Assembly: GCA_012727435.1 (NCBI GenBank)
Contig: JAAYHB010000015.1
Span: 1 to 64,000, forward strand
Direction of reading: 5' to 3'
Origin: Clostridiales bacterium
GTDB lineage: Bacteria > Bacillota > Clostridia > Oscillospirales > CAG-272
DNA length: 64,000 bases
Part shown: positions 10,550-31,772 of the stretch, one piece after another
Position numbering within the stretch: position 1 is the first letter of the stretch
Layout: every line of letters starts with the position of its first letter
Made by a program: the position numbers and the translations under genes
Notes under the pieces: model-generated
Told to the model about the DNA's origin: nothing
The model's database searches: none
Seen by the model: the letters and a program-made list of their open reading frames with translations, nothing else

Positions 10550-12259
10550 TTATTTGTCGGCCACAACCAGAATGCCGAATATCTTCTGCCGGCCGGGGCC
10601 GCCCGCCCTTATGCGGTACTTTACATGCGATATCCTGCCGGTATACGTGCCGGCCCTCCGGCTCTCGATCCCCGGTCCCGGCCTGCCCTCAAAATGAATC
10701 TCGCACAGCCGACCCCCGCTGTCGTGCAGGCTGACATAAAAATCACTCTCGGCCGTGCTTACCGCCATCACCCGCTTGACCCGCTTCTTCAGCCCGACGT
10801 GCCCCATGTCTGTATACCGGCTCTCGTATTCGGCGACAATTTCGGCGCCGCAGTCTGTGTACTCCTCCTCACCGAACATAAAGATATCCCCGCCATTAGA
10901 GAAGCCGAGCCTGCCGCCGTATCTGAAATAATGTTCTCCGAAAATACCGGTGTGGCAATACCACTTGTCAAGGCGGTAGTTGTAGACAAACACCCGCCCT
11001 TCGGTGTCGGCAGGGTTGGCTATCCAGATTTCGTCGGCCTCGCGGTGATTTATGGCGAGCGCCCCCTCGCCGAAGTTACGGCCAAGCAGCCCCGTGAGCG
11101 GCCCCGAGATTTTTCTCGCGTTGCTCTCGTCGCGCTCGTCGGTGTTTGAGGTCCAGCGATAAATCCCGTCACGGCTCACGGTCACCGGGTCGTTGTCGCA
11201 GAGCACGACGCCGCCGGCCGAAATGCAGCCGACCCCCGAATTTACCGGCCGCTCGGGCATATCCTGATAACTGTCCTCGGACAGGTCGGTCACCCGCGTC
11301 TCATCGGCCGAGAAGAGCAGCAGCCGGTCGTAGTGGCGGCAGATTGCCCGGACATCGGCGCTCCCTGAAGCGACCAAAAAGTCATACCCCACCGGGAAAT
11401 AAAGCCCGCAGGAGGCCGGAACATGCATCTTTGACCTTGCAAGGTCGGCTGCCCCGACATACTTCGAGCGGAACACCCTTGAGCGGTCGGCACCTCCGAA
11501 GCAGTAGACGCTGTTGTCGTATTTCCCGCCGAAAACCGCGGCGCCGGTACAGGCGCTCAATGCGCTTCGCTCGTTGTGGCTGCTGCCGATATGCAGGCAT
11601 ACCTCAATTCTGGTATTTAGCGGATGAGTAGTCCCGAGATTCAACGTTTTACCGTTAAGACTGTAACCGCTTGTAACCCGAGTCCCATTGATAAAGAGGC
11701 TTATCACCGACTGTGCTGCCACCCCGGTATTCACCGACGACGCAGAAGATTCAGACAACACATAGGTTATCCTGATATATTCCGAGAGTTGGTTTATCGG
11801 CTCATTGACCGGCCCGCCGGTGTGCGCCCACTCGCGCCCGTAAAGCGGGATATAGCCCTCGACCGCGGAACCGCCATTCCGCGTCACCGAATACACGTCC
11901 CGCCCGTCGATAAGGTACAGCCTGCCCTCGACCTGAAAAAAGCAGGCTGAACCGTCCGAGGTGCCGACGGTGAGCAGAGCGCTGTATTCCCGGATATCGG
12001 GATTTGCAAGATAAACCGTGTCGCCGGCCAGCACGAACAGGCTCGCCACCCCGTCGACCTCCCCCGACCAGATCGCCCTGACGTCGGCCGGAAGGCTGAG
12101 CGCACGCGCATATCCGCAGCGCTTCTCAAGTGAGCCGTCGGCAAGAATCCTGAAATTCTTAATATCCTGCGCGACATTCGCCTCTCCGATGCATGCCCGG
12201 CGGTCAATGCCGCCGAATTCCCCCGCATACAGCTTTGCAAACAGATTCTTCTTTGCCAT
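10550..12259 (-). CDS. beta-propeller-like virion protein (P22 gp10-like, tentative)
   Basis: A 569-residue beta-rich protein. The opening (EFGGIDRRACIGEANVAQD, then NFRILADGSLEKRCGY) matches the general start of phage proteins that read 'G(I/L)-D-x-R-x(n)-N-x-R-x-x-x-G-x-x-x-K-R-x-G-Y', including the DNA-stabilisation/tail-tube plug P22 gp10 and similar propellers. Repeated strand motifs such as SGSADVRAICRHYDRLLLFS, GVVLCDNDPVTVSRDGIYRW and EADEIWIANPADTEGRVFVYN look like propeller blades. It lies between TerL and portal, which is not the P22 order. Exact role is inferred. Confidence 0.55.
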   Translation of the reverse strand: MAKKNLFAKLYAGEFGGIDRRACIGEANVAQDIKNFRILADGSLEKRCGYARALSLPADVRAIWSGEVDGVASLFVLAGDTVYLANPDIREYSALLTVGTSDGSACFFQVEGRLYLIDGRDVYSVTRNGGSAVEGYIPLYGREWAHTGGPVNEPINQLSEYIRITYVLSESSASSVNTGVAAQSVISLFINGTRVTSGYSLNGKTLNLGTTHPLNTRIEVCLHIGSSHNERSALSACTGAAVFGGKYDNSVYCFGGADRSRVFRSKYVGAADLARSKMHVPASCGLYFPVGYDFLVASGSADVRAICRHYDRLLLFSADETRVTDLSEDSYQDMPERPVNSGVGCISAGGVVLCDNDPVTVSRDGIYRWTSNTDERDESNARKISGPLTGLLGRNFGEGALAINHREADEIWIANPADTEGRVFVYNYRLDKWYCHTGIFGEHYFRYGGRLGFSNGGDIFMFGEEEYTDCGAEIVAEYESRYTDMGHVGLKKRVKRVMAVSTAESDFYVSLHDSGGRLCEIHFEGRPGPGIESRRAGTYTGRISHVKYRIRAGGPGRQKIFGILVVADK

Positions 12260-12299
12260 TTTCGTATTTCCTTCTGCTTTTGTGTGGTGCCGGCTGTGC

Positions 12300-13667
12300 T
12301 TAAAAATCGTACAGACTTCTGCTCCGCCTGAAGGTGAACGGCGAAAAGGTGGTCTGAGGTTCGGGAGGCTGGGATCTGCTCATCACGGCATACCTGAGCG
12401 TCTCAGGGGCGTGCGTGAGGACGTGCGGCTCCCCGGCGGCATCCTCGGGGCGGGCCGGATCGCAGAGCAGCGACTGCATCGAGTTAATAAGCGTGCTGCA
12501 GCGCTTTGATATATGCAGCGACGGGCCCTTCCCCTCCCGGATAGCCAGATACTCGCGCAGCACCCGCCAGCCTGGTATGCGGCGGTTGTCGGCCGGGCGC
12601 AGCGGGGGCATTCCGGGGGGCGCCTGCATTATCTCGGCGCCGCTCCGCCCGCTGTCCTGCCTGCGGTTCCAGAGGTCGGGAGAGGCAACCGCATATTCGA
12701 CCTCCTGTCCCCGACAGAGTTCTGCCACCCGCCCGGCCGCCTCGCTGAGCGTCAGGTTCGGCTCGCAGCACTCGTCAAGGACCCACAAATCCATGTCAGA
12801 GTCCACCCCAACAAGCAATGCCGCCAACATATCAAAGCCGTAATCCAGTGCGACAAAGCGCCTTGTTTTATTTGGGATAACAGCCGCACCTGTAGCAGCG
12901 TCGAACACATGGACCGACTCGTCAAATTCGGCGAAAAACTGCCCCTCAAATACATCCCAGCGGCCGTGCAGCCAGGCGTCGCGCAGGCGGGCGGGCAGGC
13001 GCTCAAGCTGCCTGACATACCCCGGGTCGGCCGAGAGCAGCACGTCGTTGTCATAGACCAGCGCCGGGATGAAAGAGTAGTCGTCGGGGTGCTCTCCGGG
13101 TCTGAAATTGCGGTCGATAAAAAGGCGCTTGACCCATGCGTGCCCGATTCCGCCGGGGTTGCAGGTCAGGTAAATACGCCGGGGGTAGTTCCCGGTGCCG
13201 CGAAGTGAGGCCGATATTACCGAAAACTGATATTCGCTCAGCTGCGTTGCCTCGTCAACGGCGATAATGTCGTATTCCTGCCCCTGATAGCGCAGCGCGT
13301 CACGGTCGCATAAGCAGTAGCCGAGATCAATTGTGCTGCCGTTTGCCAGCGACAGCCGCTTCTCGCCTTCGCTGTAGTGAAGAAGCGCCCCGTACTCACG
13401 CAGCATAGGTCCGAGATGGTTTGCTTTGAGCTCGGGATATGTCCGCCTGACAAGAAGGCATCGGATGCCGGGATAGCGCAGGCAGAGTGCTATCAGCTTG
13501 CGCCGCAGCGCCCAGGACTTCCCGCCGCCCCTCGCACCTCCGTATGCGGTAAATCGGGTGCGAGAGTTAAAGAAGAGCTGCTGCTTTTTGTTCGGCACAC
13601 CGGGAATTCTGATCACTCTCTCCCCACCCTGCCCTGCTTCACCCGTCACGATAACACGCCCGGTCAT
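12300..13667 (-). CDS. terminase large subunit
   Basis: TerL packages DNA into proheads using an N-terminal ATPase and a C-terminal RNase H-fold nuclease. The 455-residue product has Walker A GGARGGGKSW (about residues 43-52), Walker B YDIIAVDEATQ, the coupling motif region YLTCNPGG and nuclease carboxylates in RRFVALDYGFDM and LWVLDECCEP with a further aspartate in VASPDLWN. Both activities therefore look intact. The start overlaps the TerS stop as ATGA, so the two subunits are translationally coupled. Confidence 0.92.
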   Translation of the reverse strand: MTGRVIVTGEAGQGGERVIRIPGVPNKKQQLFFNSRTRFTAYGGARGGGKSWALRRKLIALCLRYPGIRCLLVRRTYPELKANHLGPMLREYGALLHYSEGEKRLSLANGSTIDLGYCLCDRDALRYQGQEYDIIAVDEATQLSEYQFSVISASLRGTGNYPRRIYLTCNPGGIGHAWVKRLFIDRNFRPGEHPDDYSFIPALVYDNDVLLSADPGYVRQLERLPARLRDAWLHGRWDVFEGQFFAEFDESVHVFDAATGAAVIPNKTRRFVALDYGFDMLAALLVGVDSDMDLWVLDECCEPNLTLSEAAGRVAELCRGQEVEYAVASPDLWNRRQDSGRSGAEIMQAPPGMPPLRPADNRRIPGWRVLREYLAIREGKGPSLHISKRCSTLINSMQSLLCDPARPEDAAGEPHVLTHAPETLRYAVMSRSQPPEPQTTFSPFTFRRSRSLYDF

Positions 13668-14113
13668 TCGCCGTCAGACAGGATGTCATGCTCAAAGAAC
13701 ACGCTCAGCCCCGCGCCCTGCCCGTCGCATTTCTTTCGGTCATACCCGAGGCGGGTTTTTAGGTATGCGCCGATAAGCGCCGCCGGCTTCTCGGAATTCA
13801 GTGCCTCGTCCTCAAAGGCGGCCGATATCTGGCTTATTTCCTCGGGATAAAGCTCGGCGAGTTCGAGATACTTCCTGTGGCCGATTCCGAGATAGCGGCA
13901 AAAGCCCGCGATATTGGGGAATCTTTCGGCAGCTTCGCTTTTTTTCGCGCGCCTTTTGCTTCCCCCGGTGCCCTCCTCGCCGCCGTCGCCGCATTCCTGC
14001 CGGTCTGCACTCCCGGAGCTACCGCTCCGGCAGTCAAGTATGTACTGTTCCGCAAGCAGCAGCAATTCGACTCCGGAATACATATCTCTCTCTGACCGGA
14101 TATCCTGCTCCAT
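13664..14113 (-). CDS. terminase small subunit
   Basis: A 149-residue protein with a flexible charged centre and a C-terminal conserved half (FPNIAGFCRYLGIGHRKYLE, then LIGAYLKTRLGYDRKK), a pattern found in small terminase or packaging-initiation proteins next to this TerL type. TerS recognises the packaging site. The start is the ATG 9 bases after AGGAGG; the longer ORF of the track runs into the upstream terminator. It is the first gene of the head module. The only space for a promoter is about 40 bases, where I could not recognise one. Confidence 0.7.
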   Translation of the reverse strand: MEQDIRSERDMYSGVELLLLAEQYILDCRSGSSGSADRQECGDGGEEGTGGSKRRAKKSEAAERFPNIAGFCRYLGIGHRKYLELAELYPEEISQISAAFEDEALNSEKPAALIGAYLKTRLGYDRKKCDGQGAGLSVFFEHDILSDGE

Positions 14114-14154
14114 GCCTCCCTGCCTCCTATGGTCTGTACGGCCAGATAATAAAC

Positions 14155-14193
14155 AAAAAAAGAGTGCCACGGGGTGCCGCCCCGTGACACTCT
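14155..14193 (-). terminator. strong intrinsic terminator
   Basis: AGAGTG(T/C)CACGGGG forms a 14-bp stem with its complement, followed on the minus strand by seven T. It ends the oxidoreductase-isomerase transcript and separates it from the head module. Confidence 0.9.
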
Positions 14194-14209
14194 GTGCCAC
14201 AAATTTTAT

Positions 14210-17359: not shown

Positions 17360-18409
17360 TCAAATAAATCCGAGTATCTTATCTGTCATTTCGTCTGTCG
17401 TGAGCTGTCCGCCGATATCGCAGGTCATATATCCTGCCTCAAGCGCCTTGTTGACAGCATCTTCAATAGCATCGGCTTCCGCGGCCAGCCCGAAGGAATA
17501 GCGGAGCATCATTGCGGCCGACAGGATCGTCGCCGTCGGGTTTGCAATGCCCCGCCCGGCGATATCGGGCGCCGAGCCGTGTATAGGCTCATACATCCCG
17601 CGGCTCCCCTCACCCAGCGAGGCCGAAGGCAGCATGCCTATCGAGCCGGTGAGCTGTGAGGCCTCGTCCGAGAGGATGTCGCCGAACATATTCGAGGTCA
17701 CGATAACGTCAAACTGCGCCGGATTGCGGACAAGCTGCATTGCGGCGTTGTCGACCAGCATGTCGCTGTACTCGACATCGGGATACTCTGCCGCAAGCCT
17801 GTGCATTGTCTCGCGCCAGAGGCGGGAGCTCTCGAGCACATTTGCCTTGTCAATGCTTGTGACCTTCTTTCTGCGCTTGCGCGCCGTCTCAAAGGCCACT
17901 CTGCCTATCCTCTCAATCTCCATGACGCTGTAGCACTCGGTATCATAGGCCTCCTGTCCGTTTGGGCCTTCGCGCCGCCCGCGCTCGCCGAAATATATCC
18001 CGCCGGTAAGCTCCCTGACAATCACAAGGTCAAAGGTATCCTCAATGCGCAGCGGGCATCTGCCGCGCAGCGCGGGATAGAGCTTTGCCGGGCGGATGTT
18101 TGCATACAGCCCAAGCGCCTTGCGCAGTCCGAGCAACGCGCGTTCGGGGCGCAGATGTCCCGGGAGGGTATCCCACTTCGGGCCGCCCACGGCACCCAGC
18201 AGCACGCTGTCGCTCTCAAGGCACCTGTCTACCGTCGCCTGCGGCAGCGGCTCGCCTAACTCGTCAATCGCACAGCCCCCGGCCAAAAGCTCCGTGCATG
18301 TGATTTGATGCCCGTACTTCTCGGCTACTTTGTCAAGCACCCTGAGCGTGCTGTCGACAATCTCGGGGCCAATCCCGTCACCCTTTACCAGAGCAAGATT
18401 AAGTTTCAT
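17360..18409 (-). CDS. leuB: 3-isopropylmalate dehydrogenase
   Basis: LeuB oxidises and decarboxylates 3-isopropylmalate to 2-oxoisocaproate using NAD+; with CimA present it probably also acts on 3-methylmalate to give 2-oxobutyrate. The 349-residue product has the family signatures [51 protein letters not shown] and [23 protein letters not shown] precedes the ATG. It is the last gene of the nine-gene operon, 64 bases after leuD. Confidence 0.96.
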
Positions 18410-18473
18410 ATATATTATCCTTTCTTACCCGCGGCACTCCGTGCAGGTCGTCGGCCCGCAGGTATACTCTCCT

Positions 18474-18983
18474 TTATTTTCGGGTCTTATCTCCGATAGC
18501 ACCCGACCTGACCGCGCCTACAAGCCCGCCGGCGGCAATAATCGACTGGATGAAAGCCGGGAAGGGCTGCGCCTTGTATTCCCTGTTCTTTGTTATATTC
18601 CTAATCAGCCCGGTATCAAAATCCATCTCGACTTCGTCACCGGCCTCTATTTCGTCTGCCGCAGCCTCGCACTCGACTATCGGCAGCCCGATGTTTATCG
18701 CGTTGCGGTAGAAAATCCGGGCAAAGCTCTTGGCGATTATAAGGGCAATCCCGCTCTCCTTAATTGCGATAGGCGCGTGCTCGCGCGAGGAACCGCAGCC
18801 GAAGTTGCGCCCCGCGACCATTATGTCGCCCGGCTTCACACGCCTGACAAACTCCCGGTCTATGTCCTCCATGCAGTGGGAGGCCAGCTCCTTTTTGTCG
18901 GCGGTGTTGAGGTATCTTGCCGGGATAATCACGTCGGTGTCTACATTGTCCCCGTATTTGAGAACCCGCCCTTTGACCTTCAT
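18474..18983 (-). CDS. leuD: 3-isopropylmalate dehydratase small subunit
   Basis: Swivel-domain subunit of isopropylmalate isomerase. The 169-residue product is the short type found in many Clostridia and archaea and contains [12 protein letters not shown] and the substrate-loop region [17 protein letters not shown]. Its ATG overlaps the leuC stop by one base (TGATG), with AAGGAGG 12 bases upstream inside leuC, so subunits are produced together. Confidence 0.96.
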
Positions 18984-20248
18984 CAGCTTATGACCTCCTT
19001 CGGATGCGAGATTTTACCGGTCACGGCGCTTGCCGCCGCAACATATGGGCTTGCAAGATACACCTCGGACTCGGGGTGACCCATCCTTCCGACAAAGTTG
19101 CGGTTTGTCGTGGCCACCGCCCTCTCGCCTTTTGCGAGTATGCCCATGTGGCCGCCGAGACACGGCCCGCAGGTCGGCGGCGAGACCACCGCCCCCGCCT
19201 CAAGGAATATGCGGAGCAGCCCCATCTCAAGCGCCTCAAGATAAATCTTCGGGGTTGCGGGGATGACAATCGTCCTCACGCCCCTGGCGACCTTCCTGCC
19301 TTTAAGCACTTCAGCAGCCTGGATAAGATCCTCAAGCCGCCCGTTTGTGCAGGAGCCGATAACCACCTGATCTATCTTTATCTCGCCGAACTCATCAAAT
19401 GTTTTCGTATTCCCCGGCAGATGCGGGAAGGCCACCGTCGGCTCGATATTTGACATATCTATTTCAATTACCTGCTCGTATTCGGCGTCCTCGTCGGCCT
19501 CGTATATTACCGGAGGCTTGGCGCCGGCCTTCTTGAGGAATTCAAGGGTCTTTTCGTCAACCGGGAAGATGCCGTTCTTGGCTCCCGCCTCAATTGCCAT
19601 GTTGGCCATGCAGAGCCGGTCACTGACCGACAGCTCGGCCACCCCCGGCCCTCTGTATTCCATCGAGCGGTAGAGCGCGCCGTCCACCCCGATTTTGCCG
19701 ATTATGTGCAGTATCACGTCCTTGCCGGTCACCCACCTGCCGGGCTTGCCGGTCAGGTAGAATTTTATCGCCGGGGGAACCTTGAACCACGCCTTGCCGG
19801 TCGCCATTCCGAAGGCCATGTCGGTCGATCCGATGCCAGTCGAGAATGCGCCGAGCGCGCCGTATGTACAGGTGTGCGAGTCGGCGCCGATTACCACGTC
19901 ACCGGCCGTGACAAGTCCCCGCTCGGGCAGCAGTGCGTGCTCGACCCCCATCTCGCCGCCGTCAAAGAAGTTTTTGATTCGCTTTTCCGCGGCAAACTCG
20001 CGGCAGAGCTTGCACTGCTCGGCGGCCTTTATATCCTTGTTCGGGGCGAAGTGGTCCATGACCAGCGCCACCTTTGAATTATCAAACACCCCCGCCCTGC
20101 CGAACTTTGAGAATTCGTTTATCGCCACCGGGGAGGTGATATCGTTGCCGAGCACCATATCGACATCGACCAGCACTATCTCCCCGGCCCGTACCGAATC
20201 CACGCCGGCATGGGCGGCCAGAATTTTCTGGGTCATCGTCATTTTCAT
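18983..20248 (-). CDS. leuC: 3-isopropylmalate dehydratase large subunit
   Basis: The aconitase-like 4Fe-4S subunit that converts 2- to 3-isopropylmalate (and citramalate to 3-methylmalate in the citramalate route). The 421-residue length fits the short LeuC type. Cluster ligands are visible in [13 protein letters not shown] and [13 protein letters not shown]; other signatures include [26 protein letters not shown] and the C-terminal [18 protein letters not shown] precedes the start. It lies 12 bases after cimA. Confidence 0.96.
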
Positions 20249-20260
20249 AAATATGTCTCC

Positions 20261-21823
20261 CTATTTGAGCAGTTTGTATTCTATCGAATCGACAAGGGCG
20301 ATAAGGCTGGCTTCGATGATGTCGTTTGACACGCCCACAGTCGTCCATGTGCTCTTCTCGTCGGTCGTCTCAATCAACACGCGGACTCTGGCGGCGGTGG
20401 TGCAGTTGGATTCAAGCACGCGCACCTTGTAGTCGGTAAGCCTCATCTCCTTGATGGACGGGTAAAACACCACAAGCGCCTTGCGCAGCGCCAGGTCAAG
20501 CGCGTTCACCGGGCCGTTGCCCATGACCGCGGTCATCTCCTCCTTGCCGTCGACCTCGACCTTAATAGTCGCCGAGGCCGGCATTTCGCCTTCCGCCACA
20601 GGGAACTCGCTCATGATTTTATACATCACGAGCCTGAAAGCAGGCTTGTACAGGCCTAGAACCTTCTTGACAAGCAGCTCAAAGCTCGCGTCGGCCGCCT
20701 CAAAATGATACCCGTAATGCTCAAGCTCCTTGAGCTTCTCAAGTATTTCGGAAGTTTCCTTTGAGTTCTTCTCAAGGTGCGGCGCGAAATGCTTGATTTT
20801 CGCCAGCACGGTGCTGCGCCCAGAAACCTCGGACATGAGGAACCTGCGCTTGTTGCCTACCAGCGCCGGGTCGATATGTTCAAATGAGCAGGACTTCTTG
20901 AGCACTCCGTCTATGTGCATGCCGCCCTTGTGGGCAAAAGCGCTCGCGCCTACATACGGCTTTGTGTTGTCAATCTGGGTGTTGGATATCTCGGCTATCT
21001 TTCTTGCGGTATCCGAGAGTATCGACATATCCCGGCAGCACTCAAAGCCGCGCTTTAGCACAAGATTGGGAATGATTGCCGAGAGGTTGGCGTTGCCGCA
21101 GCGCTCGCCTATCCCGATAAAGGTCCCCTGCACATGCGTCGCCCCGGCCTCGACCGCCATCAGAGTGCTGGCGACCGCACAGTCTATATCGTTGTGGCAG
21201 TGGATGCCGATTTTCTTACCGGGAAATGCCTCCACCACCTTCTTTGTGATATTGTAAATATCCGACGGTAGGGTGCCGCCGTTGGTGTCGCAGAGCACAA
21301 GAGTCGTGGCCCCGCCCTCGGCTGCCGCCGATAGCACGCTCATGGCATACGACTCGGAGGCTTTGTACCCGTCAAAAAAGTGCTCGGCGTCGAATATCAC
21401 TTCTTTTGATTCGGACCTTAAGTACTCTATGGTGTCCCTGACCAGCTCAAGGTTTTCCTCAAGACTGATTCTGAGTATCTCGGTCACATGTAATTCCCAC
21501 GCCTTGCCGAAAATCACGACCACCGGCGTGTTGGCAGCCAGGAGCGACTTTATGTTTGCATCGTCGCAGGCCGCCACGTTGTGCCTGCGGGTGCTCCCGA
21601 AAGCGCAGAGCTTTGCGTGCCCGAGTTTTAAGTCCGAGGCCTTCCCGAAAAATTCAAGGTCCTTCGGGTTTGAACCGGGATTTCCGGCCTCGATGAAATC
21701 GATACCGAACTGGACAAGCGTCTCCACAATATTTAATTTATCATTTACCGAAAAGGAAATTCCCTCACCCTGAGCTCCGTCCCTCAGGGTCGAGTCAAGT
21801 ATTTCGATTCTACGACCTTTCAA
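20261..21823 (-). CDS. cimA: (R)-citramalate synthase
   Basis: CimA condenses pyruvate with acetyl-CoA to citramalate, the first step of threonine-independent isoleucine synthesis. The 520-residue product matches the long bacterial CimA type: ILDSTLRDGAQGEGISFS at the N terminus, GIHCHNDIDCAVA with metal ligands, GTFIGIGERCGNANL, SAFAHKGGMHIDG, and a C-terminal LeuA_dimer-type regulatory domain (about residues 385-515). The start codon is TTG with AAGGAG 10 bases upstream. Being next to leuA and leuCDB strongly supports CimA over homocitrate synthase; no ilvA is in the operon. Confidence 0.9.
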   Translation of the reverse strand: MKGRRIEILDSTLRDGAQGEGISFSVNDKLNIVETLVQFGIDFIEAGNPGSNPKDLEFFGKASDLKLGHAKLCAFGSTRRHNVAACDDANIKSLLAANTPVVVIFGKAWELHVTEILRISLEENLELVRDTIEYLRSESKEVIFDAEHFFDGYKASESYAMSVLSAAAEGGATTLVLCDTNGGTLPSDIYNITKKVVEAFPGKKIGIHCHNDIDCAVASTLMAVEAGATHVQGTFIGIGERCGNANLSAIIPNLVLKRGFECCRDMSILSDTARKIAEISNTQIDNTKPYVGASAFAHKGGMHIDGVLKKSCSFEHIDPALVGNKRRFLMSEVSGRSTVLAKIKHFAPHLEKNSKETSEILEKLKELEHYGYHFEAADASFELLVKKVLGLYKPAFRLVMYKIMSEFPVAEGEMPASATIKVEVDGKEEMTAVMGNGPVNALDLALRKALVVFYPSIKEMRLTDYKVRVLESNCTTAARVRVLIETTDEKSTWTTVGVSNDIIEASLIALVDSIEYKLLK

Positions 21824-21841
21824 GCTATGTTCTCCTTATCG

Positions 21842-23347
21842 TCAGAATTCAAGGAGCTTGTTGATACCGTTTACATAAGCAAGTATGCTCGATTCGATAA
21901 TATCTGTCGAAACCCCGCGGCCGGTGACCACCCGCTCGCCGGCTTTGAGCTTTACCGTCACCTCGCCGAGCGCGTCGTTCCCGCCGGTCACCGAATGAAT
22001 GGTGTAATCCAGCATCTCTTCGCAGAGGTTGCCGGTTATTTTGTCTATGGCATTGTAGGCGGCATTGATAGGCCCGTCGCCCAGCGACACCTCCTCAAGT
22101 ATCTCATCGTCTTTTTTCAACCTGACCACACAGGTTGCCCGGGAGTTCTTGGCGGTGTGGACGTCGAAATATTCAAGCTCATATGTCCGCCCCGAGCGGT
22201 CCTTGTTGTACACTATGGTCTCGATGTCGCTGTGGGTGATGACCTTCTTCCGGTCGCAGAGCTCGATAATTTTTTCATAATACACATCGAGCTCCTCTTT
22301 TGTGAAAGAATAGCCCATTTCCTTCAGATATTCCTCAATAGCATGCCTGCCCGAGTGCTTGCCCAGCACAATCCTATTCCGCGCAAGCCCGATGTCCTCG
22401 GGGGACATGATTTCATAGGTTGTGCGCTCGGCCAACACACCGTGCTGGTGTATGCCGGCTTCATGCGCGAAGGCATTTGCACCGACTATCGGTTTGTTTA
22501 TTGCCGCGGTCTGCCCGATGATGTTGTATACCAGCTTGCTGGTGGGGCTTATCTGCTTTGTGTCGATGCCGGTATAGCAGCCGAAGTAGTTTCTTCTGGT
22601 CTTTATCGCCATGACCACTTCTTCGAGCGCCGCGTTGCCGGCGCGCTCGCCCAGCCCGTTGACAGTACACTCAACCTGAGTTGCCCCCGCCCTGACCGCC
22701 GCCAGCGTATTGGCGGTCGCCATGCCGAGATCGTTGTGGCAGTGCACCGATATTTCGGCCTTGTCGATATTCGAAACCTTCTCGCGCAGGTAGCGTATAA
22801 TCCGGTCCATTTCCTCGGGAACGGCATAGCCTACCGTGTCGGGGATGTTCACAGTCGTCGCCCCGGCAGCAATAGCCGTCTCGACTACCCTGGCGAGGAA
22901 TTCGGGATCACTGCGCATGGCGTCCTCGGCCGAGAACTCGACATTCGAAAGATACTTCTTGGCATACGCGACCGCGGCAGCTGTCCGCTCCAGCACCTCT
23001 TCGGGGGTCATCCTCAGCTTATACTGCATATGTACCGGCGATGTGGCGATGAAGGTGTGAATCCGCGGGGAAACCGCACCCTTTACCGCCTCGTAGGCCG
23101 CATCTATATCCTTTTCGGTCGCACGGGCGAGCGAGGCTACCACGCAGTTCTTTACAGTCTTTGAAATCGCCTCAACCGACTTGAAGTCCCCGGGCGACGA
23201 GATGGCAAATCCCGCCTCAATCACGTCGACCTTCAGGGCCTCAAGCTGTTTTGCAATCTCAAGCTTTTCCTCAAGATTCATGCTGCAGCCGGGAGCCTGC
23301 TCGCCGTCCCTCAGGGTGGTATCAAAAATCTTAATTCGTCTCTCCAT
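21842..23347 (-). CDS. leuA: 2-isopropylmalate synthase
   Basis: LeuA condenses 2-oxoisovalerate with acetyl-CoA, the committed step to leucine. The product of about 501 residues has DTTLRDGEQAPGCSMN, VHCHNDLGMATANTLAA, CTVNGLGERAGNAALEEV and AFAHEAGIHQHGVL, plus the C-terminal allosteric domain (about residues 385-500). I choose the second ATG, which has GGAG 6 bases upstream; the ATG at 23359 would add four residues. It is 18 bases upstream of cimA. Confidence 0.95.
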   Translation of the reverse strand: MERRIKIFDTTLRDGEQAPGCSMNLEEKLEIAKQLEALKVDVIEAGFAISSPGDFKSVEAISKTVKNCVVASLARATEKDIDAAYEAVKGAVSPRIHTFIATSPVHMQYKLRMTPEEVLERTAAAVAYAKKYLSNVEFSAEDAMRSDPEFLARVVETAIAAGATTVNIPDTVGYAVPEEMDRIIRYLREKVSNIDKAEISVHCHNDLGMATANTLAAVRAGATQVECTVNGLGERAGNAALEEVVMAIKTRRNYFGCYTGIDTKQISPTSKLVYNIIGQTAAINKPIVGANAFAHEAGIHQHGVLAERTTYEIMSPEDIGLARNRIVLGKHSGRHAIEEYLKEMGYSFTKEELDVYYEKIIELCDRKKVITHSDIETIVYNKDRSGRTYELEYFDVHTAKNSRATCVVRLKKDDEILEEVSLGDGPINAAYNAIDKITGNLCEEMLDYTIHSVTGGNDALGEVTVKLKAGERVVTGRGVSTDIIESSILAYVNGINKLLEF

Positions 23348-23432
23348 GATAATCTCCATGCCGCCTGTGGCGGCGGTCTGATTTATTCCAGAACTGTCCG
23401 GTTAGCCGGTTATTTTATTATAAGCACAACTG

Positions 23433-25124
23433 TCATTCGTAGTTAATAATCGCTCCCCTGTCGGCAGAGGATACGTTCCTTGAGTACCTGAGGATGTAGC
23501 CCGAGAGCCCGGATTTGACTTTAAGCTGGGTCTCCTTCTTGCGCCGGCGCAGCTCCTCTTCGGGCACTTCAAGGTTAATCGTGTAGGCGGGTATGTCGAT
23601 TGAGATAATGTCGCCCTCCCTGACATATGCAATCGGGCCGCCGCGCGAGGCTTCGGGCGAGATATGGCCTATAGCCGCGCCGCGGGTGGCGCCCGAAAAA
23701 CGCCCGTCGGTAATCAGCGCGACGTCCTTGTCAAGCCCCATGCCGGCAATTGCCGAGGTGGGACCTAACATCTCGCGCATACCCGGGCCGCCCGCCGGCC
23801 CTTCGTAGCGGATGACGACAACGTCGCCCTTGTTGATCCTGCCGCCGTAAATGGCCTTGATTGCCTCCTCCTCGCCGTCAAAGACTCGAGCAGGGCCGCG
23901 GTGGACCAGCATCTCAGGTGCAACGGCGCTGCGCTTGACCACCCCGCCGTCGGGCGCGAGCGAACCGAAGAGTATTGCAAGCCCGCCGGTCTTGGAATAG
24001 GGATTTTCAACCGGCCTGATAACCGTATTGTCGATTACCGGCAGACTGTATGCTCGATTTTTTATGTTCTCCCCCATGGTCCTGCCGGTAATGCTCATAA
24101 CATCCGGGTCATAAAGTCCGGCGTCTATAAGTTTTTCAATTACCTTATACACTCCGCCGGCGTTGTACAGGTCCTGCATGTGGTGCGGCCCGGCGGGGGC
24201 GAGCCGGCAGAGATTCGGAGTCGACTCGCTGACCTCGTTTATGGTCTTAAGGCTAAATCTCACACCCGCCTCGTTTGCTATCGCCAGCAGGTGCAGCACC
24301 GAGTTGGTCGAGCAGCCGAGCGCCATGTCGACGGCCAGCGCGTTCATAAAGGCTTTTTCGGTCAGGATGTCACGAGGCTTTATTCCGAGCTTTAAGGTCT
24401 CTATGACCTGCTCGCCGGCGGCCTTGGCAAGCATAATGCGCTTTGAGAAGACTGCAGGAATCGTGCCGTTGCCCGACAGCGCCATTCCGAGCGCTTCTGT
24501 GAGGCAGTTCATCGAGTTTGCTGTAAACATCCCCGAGCAGGAACCGCAGCCCGGGCAGCAGGAGTCCTCAATTGCCGCAAGCCCGGCCTCGTCAATGGTG
24601 CCGTTCTTGTAAGCCCCGACCGCCTCAAAGGCGCTGTTCAGGTCGAGCGGCCTGCCGACAGCGTCCCTAAGCGAGAGCATCGGCCCGCCCGAGACAAAGA
24701 CCGAGGGGATATTGAGCCTCGCCGCCGCCATGAGCATGGCGGGGACAATTTTATCGCAGTTCGGCACAAAGACCAGTGCGTCAAAGCAATGCGCGCGGGC
24801 CATGCACTCGATGCTGTCGGCGATAACCTCGCGTGAGGAAAGCGAGTACTTCATGCCCTCATGCCCCATGGCTATCCCGTCGCAGACGCCTATGACATTG
24901 AATTCCACAGGCGTGCCGCCGGCGGCAAGAATTCCGTCGTGGACCGCCGCTGCAATACTCCTCAGATGAATATGCCCCGGCACTATCTCGTTAAACGAGT
25001 TGACTATGCCGACCAGCGGCTTTTTAAGCTGGCTGTCGGTATATCCCATCGCCTTGAAGAGCGACCGGTGGGGCGTCCTCTCAACGCCAGATTTTACTTT
25101 ATCGCTTGTCATTGCCGATACCAT
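23433..25124 (-). CDS. ilvD: dihydroxy-acid dehydratase
   Basis: IlvD dehydrates the dihydroxy acids of the valine and isoleucine pathways with an Fe-S cluster. The 563-residue product carries the cluster and metal motifs [12 protein letters not shown] and [17 protein letters not shown], the GCSTNSVLH motif and C-terminal [19 protein letters not shown]. The ORF-track start is about 22 residues too long; the ATG at 25124 follows AAAGGA closely, and one at 25112 (MTSDKVKSG) is an alternative. Confidence 0.95.
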
Positions 25125-25203
25125 AAATCCTTTCAAACAAAGTTTGCCGATCTCTGCCCGGCCCGCTTTCCTGATGTATTTCCGAACCAAGAGGCGGTTT
25201 ATT

Positions 25204-26208
<1,005 letters not shown>

Positions 26209-26229
26209 TTATTTATAAAAAATTTTGTA

Positions 26230-26727
26230 TTACAGATTCTGCAGTCCGCGGTTTACCGCCAGCGCCCCCGCGCGGCACATCTCGATAATCATGTCGTTTT
26301 GCTTTGCAAATTCGATGAATGCGCTGAGCTTTGAGGGCTCTCCGGTTATCTCGATAATCATCGAATCGGCGTTGAAGTCAACCACCTTGCCGCGGAAAAC
26401 ATTGACCGCTTCGGTGATTTCGGGTCTGGTGGCAGGCGTCACCCTGAGCTTTATCAGAAGGTGCTCCCGCAAAACCGTCCTGTCGGGGTCCATGAACTCG
26501 ACCTTTTTGACGTCGTGCAGCTTCCGAAGCTGCTTTACTATCTGGTTTTTGACATAATCGTCTCCTCTGGCGATAATTGTCATCCGGGAGTATTCGGGGT
26601 TCTCGGTTTCGCTGACGTTCAGGCTGTCGATATTGTATCCTCTGCGAGAGAAAAGCCCTGACACCCTGGTCAGCACGCCGAAGTGATTGGACACTATTAC
26701 GCCTAATATAAACTGCTCCTTTTGCAT
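26230..26727 (-). CDS. ilvN: acetolactate synthase regulatory subunit
   Basis: The 165-residue small subunit confers valine feedback on IlvB. It has an N-terminal ACT domain (about residues 4-75, with NHFGVLTRVSGLFSRRGYNI) and the family's C-terminal domain with ITGEPSKLSAFIEF. GGGAGG precedes the ATG, 14 bases after ilvB. Confidence 0.95.
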   Translation of the reverse strand: MQKEQFILGVIVSNHFGVLTRVSGLFSRRGYNIDSLNVSETENPEYSRMTIIARGDDYVKNQIVKQLRKLHDVKKVEFMDPDRTVLREHLLIKLRVTPATRPEITEAVNVFRGKVVDFNADSMIIEITGEPSKLSAFIEFAKQNDMIIEMCRAGALAVNRGLQNL

Positions 26728-26741
26728 TTTTGCCCTCCCTG

Positions 26742-28403
26742 CTATTTGACAATTATGTCGTCAATCGACCCGCCGGCCGGAATCATCGGCAGCACGTTCT
26801 CGTCGGTATCTATCCTGCAGTCGATCACAAACGGCCTATCCGCCGCAAATGCGGCTTCAAGCGCCCTGTCAAGCTCGGCTGCCGTCCAGGCCCTCGCTCC
26901 ACCGGCCCCGAAGGCTTCGGCAAGCTTTACGAAATCGGTTTTTCTGTTCAGCGTCGAGTTGGAATAGCGCTGCCCGTAAAAGAGCTTCTGCCATTGTCTG
27001 ACCATTCCGAGCACGCCGTTGTTCATTATGATTATCACAATCGGCAGGTTGTTCGACACGGCGGTCGCAAGCTCGGTGAGGTTCATGCCGAAACTCCCGT
27101 CGCCGGTAAAGAGCACAGTCTTCGCTCCCCCCGACGCAAAGCAACCGCCGATAGCGGCGCCCAGGCCGAAGCCCATGGTGCCGAGCCCGCCGGAAGTCAG
27201 GAGGGTGCGCGGCTTTCTGAACCTGTAATACTGCGCCACCCACATCTGGTGCTGGCCGACGTCGGTCGCGATGACGGTATCCTCATTCGTGTAGCGCTGA
27301 ACCTTCTCGATTATGGCCTTGGGGTGCATTTCCTTTCCGGTCGGATAGAAAGAGATTTCTTCCTCTATCATTTTGGCGACCTCGGCTCTCCACTCGGGCC
27401 GTCTGGCAGGGCTCAGCTTTGCGTTTATCCCCTTTAGTATCTCGCCGACATCCCCGACAAGTCCGATATTTGCCGGGATGTTCTTGTCGATCTCCGCCGC
27501 GTCGATGTCTATGTGTATGAACCTGGCGTTCTGCGTGTATCTCGTCTTGTTGCCGGTGGCGCGGTCCGAGAAGCGGACCCCGACTCCGATTATCAGGTCG
27601 GCCTCCGACTTTGCCTTTGTCGAGGCATAACGCCCGTGCATGCCTGCCATTCCGAGGCAATATTCGTAGTCGCTCGACACCGCCGAGAGCCCCATCATGC
27701 TGAAACCGACTACCGCGTCGGTCAGCTCGGCAAGTTTCTTTACCTCCCCGCCGGCGCCCGAGGCGACAACTCCTCCTCCGCAGTAAATATAGGGCTTTTT
27801 TGACTTTTCGATTAGCTCGACCGCACGGTCGATTTCGTCCTCATCGGGCTTTGGAGTGCTGAACTTCTGTATCGGCCCGCCCGGCGTGTACTCGCACCCG
27901 GCTATCTGAATGTCCTTCGGTATGTCTATTAGCACCGGCCCCGGCCGGCCCGACCGGGCAATCGTGAAGGCCTCCCTGATTATCCCCGCAAGATCCCTGA
28001 CGTCCTTTACAATGTAGTTGTGCTTGGTTATAGGCATCGTGACGCCCATGATGTCTACTTCCTGAAAGCTGTCCTTGCCGAGCAGGGGCAGGGCTACGTT
28101 CCCGGTGATGGCGACAAGCGGCGAGGAATCAAGATATGCGGTTGCAATACCGGTCACAAGATTTGTAGCCCCCGGCCCCGAGGTGGCGATCACAACCCCC
28201 ACCTTTCCCGAGGCACGGGCATAGCCGTCGGCGGCGTGCGCCGCGCCCTGCTCGTGGGCCGAGATGACATGGCGGATGCGGTCGCTCGACTTATACAGTT
28301 CGTCATATATGTTGAGCACGGCACCGCCCGGGTAGCCGAACACGCGGTCGCACCCCAGCTCGATCAATGTCTCAACTATAATCTGTGCTCCGTTCATCTT
28401 CAT
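26742..28403 (-). CDS. ilvB: acetolactate synthase catalytic subunit
   Basis: IlvB makes acetolactate or acetohydroxybutyrate from pyruvate (and 2-oxobutyrate) with thiamine diphosphate. The 553-residue product has the catalytic glutamate in SAHEQGAAHAADGYARASG, the GVRFSDRATG region and the TPP motif GDGSFGMN...IMNNGVLGMVRQWQ. The first ATG has a poor Shine-Dalgarno; AAAGGAAAG lies 13 bases upstream, next to a 14-codon out-of-frame ORF that overlaps the ilvB start. Expression is probably set by the attenuator directly upstream. Confidence 0.96.
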   Translation of the reverse strand: MKMNGAQIIVETLIELGCDRVFGYPGGAVLNIYDELYKSSDRIRHVISAHEQGAAHAADGYARASGKVGVVIATSGPGATNLVTGIATAYLDSSPLVAITGNVALPLLGKDSFQEVDIMGVTMPITKHNYIVKDVRDLAGIIREAFTIARSGRPGPVLIDIPKDIQIAGCEYTPGGPIQKFSTPKPDEDEIDRAVELIEKSKKPYIYCGGGVVASGAGGEVKKLAELTDAVVGFSMMGLSAVSSDYEYCLGMAGMHGRYASTKAKSEADLIIGVGVRFSDRATGNKTRYTQNARFIHIDIDAAEIDKNIPANIGLVGDVGEILKGINAKLSPARRPEWRAEVAKMIEEEISFYPTGKEMHPKAIIEKVQRYTNEDTVIATDVGQHQMWVAQYYRFRKPRTLLTSGGLGTMGFGLGAAIGGCFASGGAKTVLFTGDGSFGMNLTELATAVSNNLPIVIIIMNNGVLGMVRQWQKLFYGQRYSNSTLNRKTDFVKLAEAFGAGGARAWTAAELDRALEAAFAADRPFVIDCRIDTDENVLPMIPAGGSIDDIIVK

Positions 28404-28437: not shown

Positions 28438-28474
28438 AAAAAATCTTGCAATGCATTGTGTGTATTGCAAGATT
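28438..28474 (-). terminator. ilvB attenuator terminator
   Basis: AATCTTGCAAT and ATTGCAAGATT form a perfect 11-bp stem around an 11-base loop, followed by an uninterrupted T tract, between the leader ORF and ilvB. Placed in the 5' leader of an operon, it would stop transcription unless disrupted. Confidence 0.85.
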
Positions 28475-28491
28475 CAATGTTATCTATTCAG

Positions 28492-28521
28492 TTTAGGTTC
28501 AGTTAGGGTTTACTGAAACCT
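28492..28521 (-). promoter_or_regulatory. leader hairpin of the ilvB attenuator
   Basis: Directly after the leader-peptide stop codon, AGGTTTCAGT can pair with ACTGAACCT (one bulge) around an AAACCCTA loop. A second ACTGAA repeat just downstream could compete. This looks like the pause or alternative-fold part of an attenuator; the exact antiterminator needs a folding calculation. Confidence 0.5.
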
Positions 28522-28637
28522 TACTCGATAACAATGCTCTCGAATACACAACCATTATTGCCCGCGACAATAAGTACCCGTAGTACGAGTACGAGTACTA
28601 GTATGGCAATAATAGCTGCAAACGCGAAGAACATCAT
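28521..28637 (-). CDS. ilvB operon leader peptide
   Basis: A short ORF not in the ORF track: 38 codons, ATG-ATG start after CCGAGGAGATA, encoding an MMFFAFAA opening followed by residues 9-24 IIAILVLVLVLRVLIV, then AGNN, and ending in TAA. Fourteen of these sixteen residues are Ile, Leu or Val, several written with codons that look rare in this genome (CTA, ATA, GTA). The pattern resembles the E. coli ilvB leader, which has V-V-V-V-R-V-V-V-V-V-G-N. Position is decisive: promoter upstream, intrinsic terminator and ilvB downstream. Ribosome stalling at the run during branched-chain amino acid shortage would relieve termination. Alternatively it could be a tiny membrane peptide, which I consider less likely. 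Confidence 0.85.
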   Translation of the reverse strand: MMFFAFAAIIAILVLVLVLRVLIVAGNNGCVFESIVIE

Positions 28638-28666
28638 TATCTCCTCGGGCGCTTTTGATTCTCTAC

Positions 28667-28695
28667 AGTTTAACATAATAATAGTTTTATGTCAA
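28667..28695 (-). promoter_or_regulatory. promoter of the ilv-leu operon
   Basis: On the minus strand TTGACA and TAAACT are separated by 17 bases; the start point would be near 28660, some 23 bases before the leader-peptide ATG. This defines a leader of about 255 bases before ilvB. Confidence 0.75.
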
Positions 28696-28776: not shown

Positions 28777-28798
28777 AAAAATCCGAAAAATATCGGAT
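28777..28798 (-). terminator. terminator after the MMPL gene
   Basis: ATCCGA and TCGGAT form a short stem followed by TTTT on the minus strand, 4 bases past the transporter stop codon. It separates MMPL transcription from the ilv-leu promoter. Confidence 0.6.
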
Positions 28799-28802
28799 GT
28801 GC

Positions 28803-31772
28803 TCACTTCCCTTTTTTAGTAAGGAACCGAATGGGCTTATCAAGGATAATGAGGAGCGCCGGGAGCACGAACACCGTCATGATAACCGCGCATATGCCGC
28901 CGCGCATTATGGCATGCCCCAGCATGCGGACGGTCGGAAAGCTGCTTGTCAGCCCCAGAATAAGCCCGCCAACCGCAAATATGCTGCCGGAGGTCAGAAT
29001 CGAGCGCAGCGAGGTGCTCTGCGCCTCGGCCACGGCGCCGGCCTCGTCAAGCTTTTTCCTCGCCTCAAGGTAATTTGAGGTGAGCAGTATGGCATAGTCT
29101 ATTGTCGCGCCGAGCAGGATATTGCTGATTATGAGATACCCGACAAAGACCATATGCTCGCCGAGCAGGTAGGGTATGCTCATGTTTATCCATATAGCCC
29201 CCTCGATAACCGCTACGAGCATGACCGGAATCAGCGCCGAGCTGAAGCTGAGCGCCACGACCGCCGCGACTGCGGCAATCGAATAGGCAGTTATTCTGTT
29301 GAAATCGACGCTCGTGTGCTCCTCGATGTCGGCCGCGGCGGCCGTGTTGCCGAGCAGGTAGAATTCGTCGGAGCCGTACACGTCCGAAACAGTCTGGCGC
29401 ACCGCCGAAAGCATCTCCCTTGCCTCGTCGCCCTCTTCTTCGCATTCAAGGTACAGAAGCACCCTGTTGAACTTGTCTCTGCCCGTAAACTGGGCCTTCA
29501 GCACGTCGGGTAAAAGCGTGTTCATGCCCGAGTCGGCCATCTGCGCCCACGACACCACGCTCACAACCCTGTCAATGCCGGCCAGCCGCTCGCCGAGGAC
29601 GAGCTCCTTGTGATAGTTTTTTGGCACCAGCACCGCAAGCTGCTCCTGCGTGCCGAAGACCTCCTCGGCGGCCCTGCGATTTTCCAATACTTTACTGTCG
29701 GCCGGCAGGGTGGCAGACCTCCCGTAGGTAAAAGTATTCTGCCCTGCCAGATATGCCGCGGGGACTATCAGGGCAAAGGCAAGGACGACGACCACCCAGC
29801 GGTATTTGACCGAGAATCGCGAGAGCCCGCCGGTACCGAGCTTCAGCGCTTTATGCTCACTCTTTATTATGAGCTTATCGGAATACACGACCAGCCCGGG
29901 CAGAAAGAGGAATACCGTGAGAAAGCTCAGTATTATCCCCTTTGCCATCACGACGCCCATGTCAAATCCCAGCTTGTATTTCATGAATATGACCGTGACA
30001 AAGCAGGCCACGGTTGTAAGCGAACTCGCAAGAATCGGGGCGAGCGAACCTCTCAGCGCCCGTGTCATCGCTTCCTCAGCCTCAACCCCGCCTGCGCGCT
30101 CACGCTTGTAACGGTTGATGAGGAAGACCGCATAGTCAATCGAGAGGGCAAGCTGCAGTATGCTGGCCACGTTCTGGGTGAGATAAGAAACATCGCCGAG
30201 CAGCAGGTTGCTACCCATGTTCAGGATTATGGCCGAGGCTATTGCGGCAATATAGAGCAGAGGCTCAAACCACGACGAGCTGAATATCAGCAGTATGACC
30301 AGCGCGACAATTACCGCCAGTGCTGTCGCCCGGAGTATTTCGCTCCGCTGGTCCTGCCGCTCATAGTATGTGTGCGTCGCGTTGCCGAAAAGATGAAGCT
30401 TCTCTGATATCGAGACGATCTCCCCCACCGCCCGGCTGGTTGCTTCGGCGTAGTCGCCGTCGGAAAAGGCAATTGAAAACAGCGCATGCCCGTCCTTGTA
30501 AAGTCTTCCGACCTCGGTATGAAAGCCGTTGACTATATCGGCATATCCGGCCCCCAGTGGGGAGGAAACACGCATAAGGTCGCCGGCATCCGCATCCCAC
30601 GAGATATCGCCATCATAGAACTCGCCGAGCAACGGCAGAATATATGCAAGCTCTTCCCCGCTGAACTCCCGGGTCAGCGCAAGAAGAAGATCATATACAG
30701 CCGCCCCGTCACCGGTCGGCAGCACACGGGAAAGCCGCTCAAGATAATACAGTGCGTCGCCCCCGCTGAGCGGAACACCCTTGAGGTTCAGCAGGATTAC
30801 ATAGTCGATAATTGCGGGAAGCATCCCCCCATCCGAGAGTACCGGTTCAAGTGAGGTCAAGCTCTCTTTTGCGGCTGAAATTGCCGCCAGCGACTCAGCA
30901 GGAACCGGCATCATAAGAACCTGCGGATCGGAGAGGTCTATGCCCGAAAAATCCATGCCGAGCGAGGAGAGCAGTTGCATTACAACCGGCAGCTCCTGTG
31001 TGGTAAATGCCGCCGCCAGCGCCGAGTAAATATCATAGAAGGTAGTCCCTTCGGCCGACGGGAGGCAGGCTATCGCCTGCATTAAATAGGTTAATGCCTG
31101 ACCGGCCGACAGCCTGCCCGACATATTGACCGCGACCAGGGCGTCGATAAACCCCGGCAGAAACCTGACGATGTCCGAAGCACCCCCGACCTGCCCTGCC
31201 AGCGCCCGGGCGGCACTCAGGTATTCGTCCGGCAGCGGCTCTGTAAGCGCCATCAGGCGCTCAATGTCAAACTCATTTCCGCCATCCGGGAGCATATTGC
31301 CGAGCGAGCCCGAAATAAGCGTCAGCTCATCCTCCGAAAACCTGCTTTTCAAGGCAAGCGCAAGCCCGTATGGCGTTGTATCTTCTTTCTCGGGCAGGGC
31401 TTCCAGCAGCCGCAGAAAAAGTTCGACAACCTGAGAATCCGAAAGTCCGGTATCCTCTGCCAGCGGCAAAAAGATGCTGTCAAGCCAGATGACGCTCTCA
31501 ACGCCCTCAACAGCCTGAATTTCGGCCTTTATCCGCAGGACTTCTTCAATATCTCCCGAGTCAAGCATTGCCTGCGCCGTCCCTACGCCGCCGAATTCGC
31601 CTTCCATGACCAAAAATCCTGCCTTGGTGTTTGACGAGTCGGGCAGGTATTTTGTATCGTCATAATTGACCCTCACATACGGCATACACGCCGCCGAAGC
31701 TATCAGCGCCGCGGCAAAGAGGATACAAAATATCATTCTTTTTTTTACTATAAAGCTGCAGATGCGGTTCAT
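28803..31772 (-). CDS. MMPL/RND-type transporter with triplicated extracytoplasmic domain
   Basis: A 989-residue membrane protein of the MMPL branch of the RND superfamily. Membrane segment 1 is at about residues 12-30; two blocks of membrane helices (about 490-640 and 820-985) each contain the proton-relay type motif, ALSIDYAVFLINRYKR and GATIDYAILLTSNYLE. Family members move lipids or hydrophobic molecules using the proton gradient. The first extracytoplasmic loop is very large and holds three similar units of roughly 110 residues (near 111-165, 221-275 and 336-390), each with a leucine-rich helix, 'LP', 'Y-(D/G)-(I/L)', and an 'F-x-x-x-E-L' helix. GGAGG precedes the ATG. It diverges from a TetR gene that presumably regulates it. 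Confidence 0.88.
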   Translation of the reverse strand: MNRICSFIVKKRMIFCILFAAALIASAACMPYVRVNYDDTKYLPDSSNTKAGFLVMEGEFGGVGTAQAMLDSGDIEEVLRIKAEIQAVEGVESVIWLDSIFLPLAEDTGLSDSQVVELFLRLLEALPEKEDTTPYGLALALKSRFSEDELTLISGSLGNMLPDGGNEFDIERLMALTEPLPDEYLSAARALAGQVGGASDIVRFLPGFIDALVAVNMSGRLSAGQALTYLMQAIACLPSAEGTTFYDIYSALAAAFTTQELPVVMQLLSSLGMDFSGIDLSDPQVLMMPVPAESLAAISAAKESLTSLEPVLSDGGMLPAIIDYVILLNLKGVPLSGGDALYYLERLSRVLPTGDGAAVYDLLLALTREFSGEELAYILPLLGEFYDGDISWDADAGDLMRVSSPLGAGYADIVNGFHTEVGRLYKDGHALFSIAFSDGDYAEATSRAVGEIVSISEKLHLFGNATHTYYERQDQRSEILRATALAVIVALVILLIFSSSWFEPLLYIAAIASAIILNMGSNLLLGDVSYLTQNVASILQLALSIDYAVFLINRYKRERAGGVEAEEAMTRALRGSLAPILASSLTTVACFVTVIFMKYKLGFDMGVVMAKGIILSFLTVFLFLPGLVVYSDKLIIKSEHKALKLGTGGLSRFSVKYRWVVVVLAFALIVPAAYLAGQNTFTYGRSATLPADSKVLENRRAAEEVFGTQEQLAVLVPKNYHKELVLGERLAGIDRVVSVVSWAQMADSGMNTLLPDVLKAQFTGRDKFNRVLLYLECEEEGDEAREMLSAVRQTVSDVYGSDEFYLLGNTAAAADIEEHTSVDFNRITAYSIAAVAAVVALSFSSALIPVMLVAVIEGAIWINMSIPYLLGEHMVFVGYLIISNILLGATIDYAILLTSNYLEARKKLDEAGAVAEAQSTSLRSILTSGSIFAVGGLILGLTSSFPTVRMLGHAIMRGGICAVIMTVFVLPALLIILDKPIRFLTKKGK

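Follow-up and report, generated by a model that had tools for sequence, protein, structure and literature searches.

We found that the leader of an ilv-leu operon in the window, by which we mean the whole 64,000-nucleotide stretch of DNA analysed here, is most probably (at close to nine chances in ten) a classical ribosome-mediated transcription attenuator that would sense charged tRNA-Leu, tRNA-Val and tRNA-Ile. Its anatomy, the mutually exclusive structures that it can adopt, the dependence of these structures on ribosome position and their conservation within the genus were established by computation, and from them we infer the activity of the promoter, translation of the ORF, ribosome stalling and a response to amino acids. 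The whole leader (28438-28695) lies on the minus strand, and its features, together with those of the operon, are as follows:

28667-28695, minus strand: promoter-like site TTGACA-17-TAAACT with a TG before the -10 element, at 10 of 12 consensus positions (a consensus match only)
28641-28646, minus strand: Shine-Dalgarno sequence GAGGAG of the leader ORF, read from the sequence; the same-genus locus L008 has GGGAG at the same place
28521-28637, minus strand: leader peptide ORF MMFFAFAAIIAILVLVLVLRVLIVAGNNGCVFESIVIE, from the ATG at 28637 to the TAA ending at 28521
28566-28613, minus strand: run of control codons at ORF positions 9-24, reading I I A I L V L V L V L R V L I V; Ile, Leu or Val make up 14 of the 16
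28554-28613, minus strand: predicted 1:2 hairpin core, AUUAUUGCC (28613-28605, Ile codons) with GGCAAUAAU (28562-28554, Gly-Asn-Asn codons), from folding
28539-28550, minus strand: predicted antiterminator arm (region 2) UGUGUAUUCGAG, inside the ORF and downstream of the control codons, from folding
28527-28533, minus strand: 5' side of a second antiterminator helix, UGUUAUC, pairing with GAUAACA
28496-28520, minus strand: post-ORF hairpin GGUUUCAGUAAACCCUAACUGAACC, which caps the antiterminator in folding
28478-28484, minus strand: 3' side of the second antiterminator helix, GAUAACA; L008 keeps GATAAC
28438-28474, minus strand: intrinsic terminator (regions 3 and 4), an 11-bp stem AATCTTGCAAT/ATTGCAAGATT with a U run, -11.8 kcal/mol
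26742-28403, minus strand: ilvB, acetolactate synthase large subunit, the first gene of the operon (TIGR00118, above cut-off)
17360-26727, minus strand: ilvN, ilvC, ilvD, leuA, cimA (citramalate synthase), leuC, leuD and leuB (NCBIfam equivalogs)

Counted with its stop codon, the leader ORF has 38 codons from the first ATG (28637) and 37 from the second (28634), and it encodes the peptide (M)MFFAFAAIIAILVLVLVLRVLIVAGNNGCVFESIVIE. The second ATG is the more likely start, since it stands 6 nt from the Shine-Dalgarno sequence and L008 has ATA in place of the first ATG. The terminator stem spans 28474-28442 and runs into TTTTTT. The preliminary description of this DNA had proposed an attenuator made up of a promoter, this ORF, a post-ORF hairpin and a perfect 11-bp terminator before ilvB, and all of these elements are present on the minus strand. 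Its count of 14 Ile/Leu/Val codons in a 16-codon run was confirmed, the nine downstream genes were identified with NCBIfam models, and its reading of the element was supported by folding, by chance tests and by a relative; the antiterminator, which it lacked, has now been located. Of the outcomes that it had said would refute this reading, none was observed.

We compared the codon run with what chance would give. The best Ile/Leu/Val run in 3000 dinucleotide-preserving shuffles of the leader held 12 of 16 codons (reached 4 times), against 14 of 16 in the real leader, while the next-best run in the whole window, taken over short stop-to-stop segments in all six frames, held 10 of 16. The run exceeds chance. 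The fold of the minus-strand leader, at -80.5 kcal/mol, likewise stood apart from shuffled sequences (z = -5.7).

The nine ilv-leu genes probably form a single transcript, since the gaps between them are short and they share one strand. Upstream, on the same strand, lies a gene for an MMPL-type exporter (28803-31772, minus strand), which ends at 28803. Just after it we observed a terminator-like hairpin, ATCCGATATTTTTCGGAT, followed by a T run (28781-28798, minus strand); this gives the MMPL gene a terminator-like site of its own, so the leader terminator is not merely where that gene ends. Downstream of the operon, the interval 10550-14200 (minus strand) carries phage-like genes, among them a terminase large subunit at 12300-13667 (Pfam Terminase_6N), with neighbours at 13664-14200 and 10550-12259 that had no Pfam match; the interval may be a prophage or a remnant of one. 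A pattern scan of viral contigs gave no match.

Folding located the antiterminator at codons 30-33 of the leader ORF, which pair with the 5' arm of the terminator. Region 2, UGUGUAUUCGAG (28550-28539), is joined to the terminator 5' arm and loop, at CUUG(C)AAUACACA, by 12 base pairs that a single bulge interrupts, and the helix between UGUUAUC (28533-28527) and GAUAACA (28484-28478) lengthens this structure, with the post-ORF hairpin as its cap. In the ribosome-free leader, AUUAUUGCC paired with GGCAAUAAU and the terminator was left free. To follow the effect of ribosome position, a ribosome was set at every codon with four different footprints, and the RNA downstream of it was folded. With the ribosome at codon 27 or beyond, the probability of the terminator was 1.0 for all four footprints, while at codons ~17 to 22 the antiterminator was the best structure for every footprint; at codons 11-16 or 23-25, the outcome was mixed and varied with the footprint. 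A ribosome anywhere in codons ~3-10 likewise exposed region 2. In the folding model, stalls at codons 11-14 often favoured the terminator, so that Ile codon 12 may be less important than the later Leu and Val codons.

The strength of this switch was compared with that of leaders in which the segment from the control run to the terminator had been shuffled. At equilibrium, the switch was 0.69, compared to 0.00 in shuffles, with none of 20 shuffles as good. A co-transcriptional measure was added because equilibrium folding shows no switch in relatives with very strong terminators, and it gave 0.51 for the window leader, compared to 0.02 in shuffles (0 of 40 as good). Taken together, these models predict that the antiterminator excludes the terminator and forms when a ribosome is at the control codons.

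These structures suggest the following mechanism. RNA polymerase would start ~25 nt upstream of the ORF, with a ribosome trailing along the leader. With ample branched-chain amino acids, the ribosome would reach codon 27 or beyond and cover region 2, allowing the 11-bp terminator to form and end transcription ahead of ilvB. Under a shortage of Leu, Val or Ile, the ribosome would instead stall within codons 9-24, covering the 5' side of the 1:2 hairpin; region 2 (UGUGUAUUCGAG...UGUUAUC) would then be freed to pair with the terminator 5' arm, no terminator would form, and the nine-gene operon would be transcribed. A leader that is not translated would terminate by default through the 1:2 hairpin.

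The sole close relative that shares the window leader is L008, from a genome (G002) of the same genus, whose IlvB is 88% identical. L008 keeps both the codon run and its frame, as MFFAAAIIAILVLVLVLRVLLAVRNNSCVF: five codons differ inside the run, of which three changes are synonymous and a fourth is an Ile/Leu swap, and the frame is kept through the VF codons, after which the position of the stop differs. L008 also retains the antiterminator core, and all pairs of its terminator are unchanged apart from one that could not be aligned. The simulated switch of L008 goes in the same direction as that of the window leader and is weaker, with an equilibrium value of only 0.10 and a co-transcriptional value not distinct from shuffles (5 of 40 as good). 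The 20 N-terminal residues of the leader peptide are well kept in L008, while the peptide tail differs between the two species, as the L008 stop codon lies within region 2; this speaks against the peptide having a function of its own. The ilvB locus (L224) of G001, a second genome assigned to this genus, has no such leader before ilvB, and its IlvB is 58% identical; by inspection, ilvB is there the last gene of a different operon, in the order ilvA-like, ridA-like, leuA-like, leuC, leuD, leuB, ilvB. One genus therefore holds two kinds of ilv-leu operon, that of G001 and that of the window and L008.

Among order-level relatives, we identified a subclass of leaders whose peptides share a conserved end, with the sequence NSAKSCA or NNAESCA. 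Control codons (for example SII, SAI or CAI) are the pairing partners of the NSA codons, and two-sided compensatory changes are seen in this stem, with AGCGCUAUU/AAUAGCGCU in one case versus AGCAUUAUU/AAUAAUGCU in another. Across 14 distinct sequences, 118 of 126 pairs in the stem between control codons and region 2 were standard, and 15 of 10,000 re-dealings did as well, in a test with hand-chosen arms and no control for relatedness. The KSCA codons (AAA AGU UGU GCC) pair with an arm of the terminator; a permutation test for co-variation between regions 2 and 3 in the NSAKSCA class was not significant (1311 of 10,000), because the motif hardly varies there. Judged from the sequences, the NSAKSCA peptide end is explained by its codons acting as RNA pairing partners. 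The 1:2 hairpin core of the window leader has in this stem a covarying analogue, and AUUAUUGCC/GGCAAUAAU follows the same idea, with Ile codons set against Asn-Asn codons. Common ancestry of the two stems is plausible.

We then considered ilvB leaders more widely, in regions upstream of ilvB from family, order and named genomes, of which 213 had enough sequence. At the 122 loci of the family, ilvB lay directly behind another gene at 54, followed a T-box motif at 31 and followed an Ile/Leu/Val (ILV) leader ORF with a terminator at ~18, leaving 19 in none of these classes; many of the T-boxes in the survey were confirmed by Rfam. Strong ILV ORFs, defined as having at least 10 Ile/Leu/Val in 14 codons, preceded ilvB at 32 of the 80 loci that had neither a T-box nor a close upstream gene, and at none of the 48 T-box-motif loci or the 85 loci inside operons. 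The difference from the T-box loci gave a Fisher p of 2e-8, which is only indicative since the species are not independent. A strong ILV ORF and a T-box never occurred together at the 213 ilvB loci. The nearest named ilvB loci belong mostly to Clostridia MAGs, and ILV leaders were also seen before ilvB in Oribacterium sinus and Ruminococcus MAGs, among named Clostridia, as well as in Lentisphaerota (for example Oligosphaera ethanolica).

At four Lentisphaerota and Verrucomicrobiota loci (L074, L080, L057 and L043), two short ILV-rich ORFs stand in tandem before ilvB; in L074 these are MNTVFNNINSIIIIAAVVIIGCGTAGCCC and a second ORF ending VIIITPPGMV. The arrangement suggests tandem attenuators. 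The IlvB proteins of these loci are ~60% identical to clostridial IlvB, which may point to horizontal transfer.

The host genome encodes Spo0A; together with its six T-boxes and the predominance of Clostridia MAGs among the nearest named ilvB loci, this places it in the endospore-forming Bacillota, most likely among the Clostridia. CodY (PF06018) was not found in this genome, which is ~94% complete, and the guanidine-I (ykkC) model had no match in it. The RF00230 model detected six T-boxes in the genome (L001-L006), none of them at the ilvB leader. They precede gatA (~0.45 kb downstream), valS, genes like serA and trpB, the gene of a TrpX-like binding protein and, by inspection, a sodium-solute-symporter-like gene. 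In this genome, the valS T-box (L002, contig C23) coexists with the leader-peptide ilv-leu operon.

We consider it very unlikely that the leader responds to its translation in general, through ribosome occupancy or coupling (for example to growth rate), rather than to the supply of Ile, Leu and Val. Such a response would fit the predicted termination of untranslated RNA and the exposure of region 2 by ribosomes early in the ORF; on the other side stand the 14 of 16 codons that match the end products of the operon, a proportion not given by chance, and the retention of codon identity in L008 by way of synonymous changes. Even less likely is that the leader peptide is a small hydrophobic membrane protein with a function of its own, before a terminator that is simply leaky. 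The peptide is indeed very hydrophobic (LVLVLVL), and the conservation of its N-terminus in L008 would agree with such a role, but the stop position and C-terminus are not shared by the two species, and in order-level relatives the C-terminal codons track the needs of RNA pairing. In addition, ILV identity recurs in otherwise differing peptides, always before ilvB and never where a T-box is present, and region 2, which pairs with the terminator, is itself inside the ORF.

The least probable explanation is that a T-box or another tRNA- or ligand-sensing RNA governs the terminator and that the ORF is incidental. T-boxes are common in the lineage, as the six in the host genome (one of them before valS) and the motif at 31 of 122 family loci attest, and PMC10272879 cites reports of ppGpp riboswitches before ilvB in Firmicutes. 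However, the T-box covariance-model search that the preliminary description had suggested found no T-box in the leader even at E values up to 5, nor did any bacterial regulatory family in Rfam match there at that level. At gathering thresholds, no T-box or other RNA family of Rfam matched the window, the T-box sequence TGGNACC was not found in the leader, and the known ilvB leader motifs, so far as Rfam has models of them, had no match in it. Elsewhere in the host genome the T-box model does find matches, and so it works there. A ribosome-mediated attenuator that senses branched-chain aminoacyl-tRNAs is the reading that we prefer.

In Bacillota, the textbook view is that branched-chain amino acid genes are controlled by T-boxes. 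For Clostridia, a survey from 2008 described branched-chain operons as being under T-box control (PMC2494555). Within the one family surveyed here, there has been an apparent repeated exchange of T-boxes and leader peptides before ilvB. Going further, we lean somewhat towards the view that ILV attenuators form a widespread and largely unannotated class in uncultured Clostridia that has been swapped with the T-box many times, that NSAKSCA is the RNA signature of one of its subclasses (NSA with the control codons, KSCA with the terminator) and that the window leader is a derived relative. Because close relatives differ in using a T-box or a leader peptide, the exchange between direct tRNA sensing and sensing by the ribosome can be tested within one family. 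The host genome itself, in which valS has a T-box and ilv-leu a leader peptide, would use the two strategies of tRNA sensing side by side for the same amino acids. Gene callers easily miss ORFs of 30-40 codons, so that a regulon of this kind is easily misread.

Several known systems resemble the window leader. T-boxes (RF00230; Bacillales and Clostridia) act on the same genes, also by a choice between terminator and antiterminator made according to tRNA charging (PMC2494555), and are found before ilvB in members of the family; they differ in binding uncharged tRNA directly, with no ribosome, and are absent from the window leader. Exchange of a T-box for a leader peptide has been described by Naville and Gautheret, who reported His leader peptides in bacilli (PMC2965389). 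Attenuators with a uORF before ilvB are known from Corynebacterium (PMC10272879). The Corynebacterium ilvB-II motif and the ilvB-OMG and Leptospira ilvB motifs, proposed attenuators (PMC10272879), share with the window leader a uORF rich in branched-chain codons before ilvB; the Corynebacterium uORFs are usually 15-17 aa, and the Corynebacterium and Leptospira motifs were described in other phyla. The E. coli ilvBN leader IvbL (MTTSMLNAKLLPTAPSAAVVVVRVVVVVGNAP) is likewise an attenuator with a short ORF and a branched-chain codon run before ilvB. Its run consists of Val (with Leu earlier) and it controls ilvBN, whereas the run in the window consists of Leu, Val and Ile and precedes nine genes. 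The close resemblance to IvbL claimed in the preliminary description (V-R-V, then G-N) is probably coincidence or convergence, since L008 reads R-V-L-L-A-V-R-N-N and lacks G-N; we have set homology aside as a candidate explanation.

The same description had called such a regulator unexpected in a Firmicute, which was overstated, given the precedents in S. aureus (PMC5794164) and bacilli (PMC2965389) and the many similar leaders in Clostridia. The S. aureus ilv-leu operon, whose first gene is ilvD, has a leader-peptide attenuator rich in Leu and Ile, and similar attenuators were predicted for Lactococcus and Streptococcus (PMC5794164). This leader too belongs to a Firmicute and has a short ORF of 26 aa, rich in Ile and Leu, ahead of the first gene of a whole ilv-leu operon, with a terminator and an antiterminator and no T-box. 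Compared by description rather than by alignment, the window leader is longer, has 14 control codons for all three amino acids and precedes ilvB, not ilvD; S. aureus also uses CodY, which the genome of the window appears to lack. No description of ilvB leader peptides in Clostridia was found in the literature searched, a search that left subscription journals mostly outside. The S. aureus ilv-leu attenuator peptide is the nearest precedent: the mechanism is known, and this instance of it is new and unannotated.
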